Position numbers and translations under genes: made by a program. Positions 2,527 through 20,602 of a stretch of 34,505 nt of DNA are shown here, piece after piece; the stretch's first letter is position 1, and each line of letters opens with the position of its first letter. The notes beneath the pieces are model-generated. The model was not told where the DNA came from. It did no database searches and was given only the letters and a program-made list of their open reading frames with translations. The stretch is from Calditrichota bacterium (GTDB lineage: Bacteria; Zhuqueibacterota; Zhuqueibacteria; Residuimicrobiales; Krinioviventaceae): contig JAADGR010000276.1 in NCBI GenBank assembly GCA_013152225.1, positions 1 through 34,505 on the forward strand, read 5' to 3'.

Positions 2527-2548
2527 TGCAATCCATACAGGGATTGCG
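2527..2548. repeat. Single-hairpin unit related to the double-hairpin core repeat
   Basis: TGCAATCC-ATACAG-GGATTGC(G), flanked by AG...CTCC; same stem as the first hairpin of the 20491 copy. Confidence 0.5.
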
Positions 2549-2573
2549 CTCCAATTTTTGCCTGCAAATTCCT

Positions 2574-2700
2574 CGTCACCATGCTCTCAGATTGTGTAAA
2601 AACGAAGAGTGCAACGCCTTTATGCGTTGCAATGCAGCCCATAAAGGGGCTGCACTCCTGGAATTTGATCGTTTTCACACAGTCTGTCTGCGTGGTGACG
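2574..2700. repeat. Nested palindromic element: 32-bp imperfect inverted repeat enclosing the 53-bp double-hairpin core (2606..2658)
   Basis: Left arm 2574..2605 cgtcaccatgctctcagattgtgtaaaaacga; right arm 2669..2700 reverse complement cgtcaccacgcagacagactgtgtgaaaacga (26/32 identical). Core AGAGTGCAACGCCTTTATGCGTTGCAATGCAGCCCATAAAGGGGCTGCACTCC. Confidence 0.85.
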
Positions 2701-20406: not shown

Positions 20407-20437
20407 AAAAAAAGGCAGCCAAAGCCGCCTTTTTTTA
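20407..20437. terminator. Bidirectional rho-independent terminator
   Basis: AAAAAAAGGCAGCcaaaGCCGCCTTTTTTT. Confidence 0.65.
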
Positions 20438-20441
20438 AAAA

Positions 20442-20586
20442 AATATGATTATGCAGATATTTCAGCTAGTGCAAAATTGCGGTAATAATCGGAGTGCAAT
20501 CCCTTTATGGATTGCACTGCGGCGCATAAAGGCGCCGCACTCCTTGCCGAAAAGATGTTTAGCTGAGGCATTTGCATAATCATATT
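20442..20586. repeat. Nested palindromic element: 26-bp imperfect inverted repeat enclosing the 53-bp double-hairpin core (20491..20543)
   Basis: Left arm 20442..20467 aatatgattatgcagatatttcagct; right arm 20561..20586 reverse complement aatatgattatgcaaatgcctcagct (22/26). Core GGAGTGCAATCCCTTTATGGATTGCACTGCGGCGCATAAAGGCGCCGCACTCC. Confidence 0.85.
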
Positions 20587-20602
20587 AAAAAAATTGCAGA
20601 GG

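Follow-up and report, generated by a model that had tools for sequence, protein, structure and literature searches.

Inverted GGAG-CTTTAT hairpin doublets in a Calditrichota genome: a probable REP system with an associated RAYT gene, carried within MITE-like elements

REPs, the short hairpins associated with REP-associated tyrosine transposases (RAYT, or TnpAREP), have a GT[A/G]G head as their defining feature (PMC2817692, PMC3686654). Most have been sorted into the GTAG and CGTC superfamilies; head-outward heterodimers are common and unexplained, and complementary stem changes have also been described (PMC3733652). One search model for simple hairpins uses a palindromic stem of at least 7 bp and a loop of 2–5 nt, and subclass 2.8 of the class 2 TnpAREP has the signature NHYH, W[YH], YIHYNP (PMC6006769). 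TnpAREP acts on single-stranded DNA, where it binds the hairpin and is guided to its cut by the tetranucleotide; recognition depends on the loop in two group 3 systems and on a bulge in E. coli, and that of perfect palindromes is only partly understood (PMC8266576). Some insertion sequences insert into REPs, ISPpu9 being an example (PMC8450116). A literature search for candidate division KSB1 together with REP repeats found no paper. Here we describe a repeat from a Calditrichota bacterium that is very probably a REP doublet (REPIN- or BIME-like), mobilised now or formerly by a RAYT, with many copies also lying as cargo inside MITE-like elements.

The stretch of DNA analysed (the window) comprises 34,505 nucleotides of contig JAADGR010000276.1. 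It contains two intergenic copies of a 53-bp core, copy A at 2606-2658 and copy B at 20491-20543, exactly where the original prediction had placed them. The copies align without gaps and differ at 10 of the 53 positions, eight of these differences forming four compensated stem pairs, and each core consists of two inverted hairpin units, all as proposed. The matching of hairpin 1 to hairpin 1 is valid, but it is only one of two equally good choices. The core being pseudo-symmetric, A aligns just as well with the reverse complement of B as with B itself (10 differences, four compensated pairs in each case); the BLAST match of B to A was a minus-strand one.

Each unit consists of a 5′ head, GGAG, which had gone unmentioned before, followed by an 8-bp stem and a CTTTAT loop. 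In copy A, unit 1 (2606..2631, plus strand) has the head AGAG in place of the consensus GGAG, the stem TGCAACGC/GCGTTGCA and its loop at 2618-2623, and matches the search pattern given below with one mismatch. Unit 2 (2633..2658, minus strand, inverted; head GGAG, stem TGCAGCCC/GGGCTGCA, loop CTTTAT) is an exact match, as are both units of copy B, at 20491..20516 (plus strand, stem TGCAATCC/GGATTGCA) and 20518..20543 (minus strand, inverted, stem TGCGGCGC/GCGCCGCA), each with head GGAG and loop CTTTAT. A lone unit of this family, now decayed (GGAGCGCAATCCCTGTATGGATTGCA; 2527..2552, minus strand, two mismatches), adjoins copy A. Just upstream of copy B, at 20407-20436, an A-run, a G+C-rich hairpin and a T-run (AAAAAAAGGCAGCCAAAGCCGCCTTTTTTT) resemble a bidirectional intrinsic terminator.

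Genome-wide counts were obtained by pattern and BLAST searches and from extracted stretches. With copy A as query, BLAST returned 42 matches in its own genome, a draft of 4,891,513 bases in 533 contigs that is 93% complete. The pattern GGAGTGC-N5-CTTTAT-N5-GCA fixes head, stem foot and loop and leaves five stem pairs free; being blind to pairing, it provides a less biased test of covariation than a covariance model. With up to two mismatches, it matched the own genome 70 times, compared to twice for the reversed control. The unit recurs far above chance, with the dispersed copies of a RAYT-associated REP system in the broad sense. Allowing one mismatch, the pattern was present in 33 of 147 sampled genomes. 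Those in which it was abundant (up to 58 matches each, controls 0 or 1) all lie within the source phylum, outside which the sample held a single match. Head-outward doublets were found in 11 of the 63 genomes of the class, and 35 distinct doublets among the sequences examined. One locus of the own genome (L032) and one of the same genus (L076) appear to be one doublet locus shared by two species, with nearly identical flanks; one stem of the L076 doublet carries uncompensated changes (GGCTT opposite GCGCC).

The claim that structure is kept while the stem sequence changes was borne out by pairing statistics in further copies. Free stem pairs were Watson-Crick in 94.3% of cases in 256 listed units from 13 genomes. 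For distinct units (n = 121), the value was 88.9%, compared to a mean of 51.9% (sd 1.8, maximum 58.8) when the right stem halves were permuted in 2000 rounds, a comparison that, like the other shuffles, is not a probability, as unit sequences share ancestry. In an alignment of 40 sequences, chosen to represent the range of stem types, mismatched examples among them, 94.7% of the cells were paired. The covariation score was 0.545, as against 0.179 after shuffling and at most 0.151 for slid structures; 74 cells had changed on both sides, compared to 25.8 in shuffled data, and the varying pairs were the four in the middle of the stem. Since shared ancestry weakens the shuffles, the stronger statement is that 25 fully paired stem types exist around a constant head and loop, a constancy that among pattern matches is partly imposed by the pattern. 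Stem variation around the fixed tag and loop is unusually free. Avoidance of identical stems within a doublet was not established: homodimers made up 0 of 22 genome-level combinations, with approximately 1.5 expected by shuffling (P(0) 0.18-0.21). Near-perfect palindromes made of identical units may drop out of short-read metagenome assemblies. A rule pairing one unit that ends in ...CC with one that ends in ...GC fits most doublets of the own genome and fails in L032 and in relatives.

The compensation could stem from palindrome-correcting mutation rather than from selection. Template switching during replication, by which a quasi-palindrome is corrected as one arm is copied from the other, is an established mutational mechanism, and the outer MITE arms described below are also well paired. 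The element would then still be a REP doublet, and the covariation would say nothing about function. We consider this source of the compensated changes rather unlikely: it leaves unexplained why head, stem foot and loop are constant while the middle of the stem varies, and T–G wobble intermediates (e.g. ATTGC/GCGAT) occur repeatedly in one genome, as expected for stepwise change.

The original prediction had suggested a search for a REP-associated tyrosine transposase, and such a gene is present, flanked by GGAG-CTTTAT units. A search with Pfam Y1_Tnp hit the own genome at four places on three contigs; the matches on C170 and C157 are interrupted by stop codons, whereas that on C424 is intact. 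The intact gene (C424:7021-7569, corresponding to L057:522-1070) encodes 182 aa; the first of its flanking units lies 51 bp before the start, a second follows the stop directly and a third is found 59 bp downstream. The product passes the NCBIfam equivalog NF047646 (97.5 bits versus a cut-off of 80), matches E. coli TnpAREP 4er8 and contains the conserved motifs NHYH, WY and YILYNP; it has the HUH and catalytic Tyr motifs of the RAYT family.

Five further RAYT loci, in records named candidate division KSB1 (three) or only 'bacterium' (two), encode proteins 68-70% identical to the C424 RAYT, and units lie on both sides of the gene in all five. One of the six genes, in L066 (L066:3001-3538), is frameshifted and is still surrounded by many units. 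The six flanks were collected by protein similarity and not by the repeat, and are therefore free of pattern bias. Beside these genes, 14 of 14 perfect CTTTAT hairpins have the head GGAG, and the only other perfect hairpins are three unrelated ones. A link between the WY motif (WQ in many other RAYTs) and the GGAG head was dropped, since in subclass 2.8 W[YH] goes together with canonical heads. Next to copy A in the window, at 2706-2720 and 2756-2777, lies a second REP-like family (TTCCCACGC..GCGTGGGAA), often accompanied by GACGCTCTGCGTC. It is also found just upstream of the stop-containing Y1_Tnp match on C170 (L055, about 500-1000), which may be the decayed transposase of that family.

Flanking of RAYT genes by the units in six genomes also bears on a very different reading, namely that the element is a structured RNA with kissing loops, whether a terminator, an attenuator or a small RNA. 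The element folds well as RNA, both window copies lie between genes, and the loops CTTTAT and ATAAAG are complementary. The predicted RNA folds were one long hairpin for copy A with its arms and a double hairpin for copy B; in DNA, many doublets had the two-hairpin form as their minimum-energy fold or close to it, and for others a single long hairpin came close. The complementarity is, however, automatic, because the units are inverted copies of one another, and lone units beside RAYT genes keep the loop, so that the kissing proposed in the original prediction is unsupported. An Rfam scan of the window gave no match, and together with the RAYT flanking this makes the RNA reading highly improbable. 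Other REPs are known for roles in transcripts, and the doublets may have a secondary role of that kind.

Each core sits within long inverted arms, which had previously escaped mention. The arms of A and B are wholly different because their carriers differ (F1 around A, F2 around B); they are not part of the core and belong to two different MITE-like elements. F1 at copy A is 99 bp long (2588..2686), with ends CAGATTGTGTAAAAAC / GTTTTCACACAGTCTG, like CAGACTGTGTGAAAAC, and is flanked by TCT at 2585-2587 and 2687-2689. It appears to have inserted in the loop of a third repeat, a hairpin whose left arm, GTCACCATGC (2575..2584), pairs in the fold with the right arm, GCGTGGTGAC (2690-2699). Most F1 copies are located in the loop of TTCCCACGC-TCCT-GCGTGGGAA hairpins, of which uninterrupted examples with a single TCCT occur in L047-L050; in L015, L016 and L052-L054, both F1 ends are directly adjoined by the 4-bp repeat TCCT, or AGGA where the orientation is reversed. 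F2 at copy B (20444..20584; ends TATGATTATGCA / TGCATAATCATA), present in about nine copies in the genome, is flanked there by low-complexity TTAAAAAAA (20435-20443 and 20585-20593); 9-bp flanking direct repeats of F2 are TAATTTATT in L035 and ATTTTGGAT in L031. A third carrier, F3, has the ends GTATCCGCTCAATA and, in L028, the 8-bp direct repeat ATGATTTA. All three have the inverted ends of MITEs, and several copies are without direct repeats. A search for an autonomous parent transposon of F1 or F2 found none.

Long inverted arms enclose most of the own-genome doublets examined, and the combination of arms and core recurs, as would be expected if they were one larger palindromic element whose core is unrelated to the RAYT. 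That explanation is already largely refuted and strikes us as very improbable. The GGAG core occurs in at least three unrelated arm types in this genome and in another in two relatives (L079 and L088, between ends TTAGTCAGATT). It also occurs without them: among the sequenced stretches examined, the own-genome doublets are mostly in F1, F2 or F3, with L024, L032, L034 and L039 outside. Conversely, F1 is found with a different interior: of 14 copies listed, ten have the GGAG core and four a different repeat (GTCATTGCGAG type), which is also present in L092 and L093. Finally, RAYT genes are flanked by units without these arms. On the simplest interpretation, GGAG doublets have been captured by unrelated MITEs, which carry them. 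Further combinations were noted. F1 has another repeat (GTCATTGCGAGGAGTG...CGCAATGAC) inside in L041, L051-L054, L092 and L093, and an F2-like left arm adjoins the GTCATTGCGAGGAGTG...CGCAATGAC repeat in L061, as though the acquisition of REP-type cargo by these MITEs were a recurrent event. In L091 (contig C376), an F1-like end pair (GAGACTGTGTGAAAAC) at about 450-590 encloses a third, unrelated interior, and a further F1-like end lies near the contig end.

That one core is found both within several unrelated arm types and away from such arms counts in favour of a REP doublet mobilised by a RAYT. Against it stand the GGAG head in place of the canonical GT[A/G]G, a loop longer than in the PMC6006769 model, and the presence of one RAYT beside many stem types, which is unusual for published REP classes; a second RAYT may have been lost, the draft genome being 93% complete. 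By analogy with TnpAREP, the mover would be the RAYT, a single-strand HUH nuclease encoded between copies of the GGAG-CTTTAT hairpin. Its substrate would be two REP-type hairpins, inverted with their heads outward, each with GGAG as a guide-like 5′ tetranucleotide. We infer that the C424 enzyme would bind the single-stranded hairpin through head, stem foot and loop, cut under guidance of the tetranucleotide and so move the doublet. Under the guide model of PMC8266576, GGAG would be expected to send the cut to CT or CC. The middle of the stem would need only to pair and could drift by compensated changes; near-constant head, foot and loop with paired change in the middle fit an enzyme that reads the first three and needs pairing in the last. 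A, B and many other copies lie inside the unrelated MITE-like elements (F1 and F2, and F3 elsewhere) and would be carried along as these transposed.

A bolder proposal, which we put forward tentatively, is that these RAYT/REP systems form a separate branch at the level of the phylum, where only GGAG head, foot and loop are read, one enzyme accepts almost any stem, doublets travel as MITE cargo and F1 goes into REP loops. The elements would then be nested like Russian dolls, with the doublet in a MITE and F1 in the loops of other REP hairpins. A family in which a single intact RAYT accompanies many fully paired stem types, all sharing head, foot and loop, amounts to a natural experiment on how TnpAREP recognises perfect palindromes, and the carriers show how MITEs can carry REP doublets. 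The family widens the head motif beyond GT[A/G]G, so that the cited repeat searches would miss it.

Several described systems share part of this arrangement. Like the heterodimers of the GTAG and CGTC superfamilies, the doublets consist of inverted units with different stems, but the tag GGAG belongs to neither superfamily and is absent from the text of PMC3733652. That work already reports heterodimers and complementary stem changes, so these traits are not new in themselves. In its motifs NHYH, W[YH] and YI-YNP, the RAYT matches subclass 2.8; unlike the present system, the sampled members of that subclass came chiefly from Cyanobacteria and had canonical GT[A/G]G REPs (PMC6006769). F1, located in a REP-like hairpin loop with TCCT on both sides in several copies, resembles REP-inserting insertion sequences such as ISPpu9 (PMC8450116), but it lacks a transposase and is itself the carrier of a further REP doublet. 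The Marinomonas loop TTTA (PMC8266576) resembles the centre of CTTTAT. The closest likeness is to REP/RAYT (TnpAREP), REPINs and BIMEs (PMC2817692, PMC3116915, PMC8266576): a short hairpin with a 5′ foot tetranucleotide, inverted doublets, dispersed intergenic copies, complementary stem changes and a RAYT gene flanked by inverted copies. The differences are the GGAG head, the 6-nt loop and the finding of a single intact RAYT in this genome alongside numerous fully paired stem types. The original prediction had counted membership of an already catalogued family against itself; this applies to the kind (REP/RAYT) but not to the head tetranucleotide and loop, which are outside the definitions in the papers cited: the foot of the hairpin has GGAG and not GT[A/G]G, and, while the 8-bp stem fits the PMC6006769 model, the 6-nt loop does not. 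RAYT flanking, doublets and dispersal nevertheless fit, which makes the family a variant within the REP/RAYT kind; the sequence tag is new, and the kind is already known.
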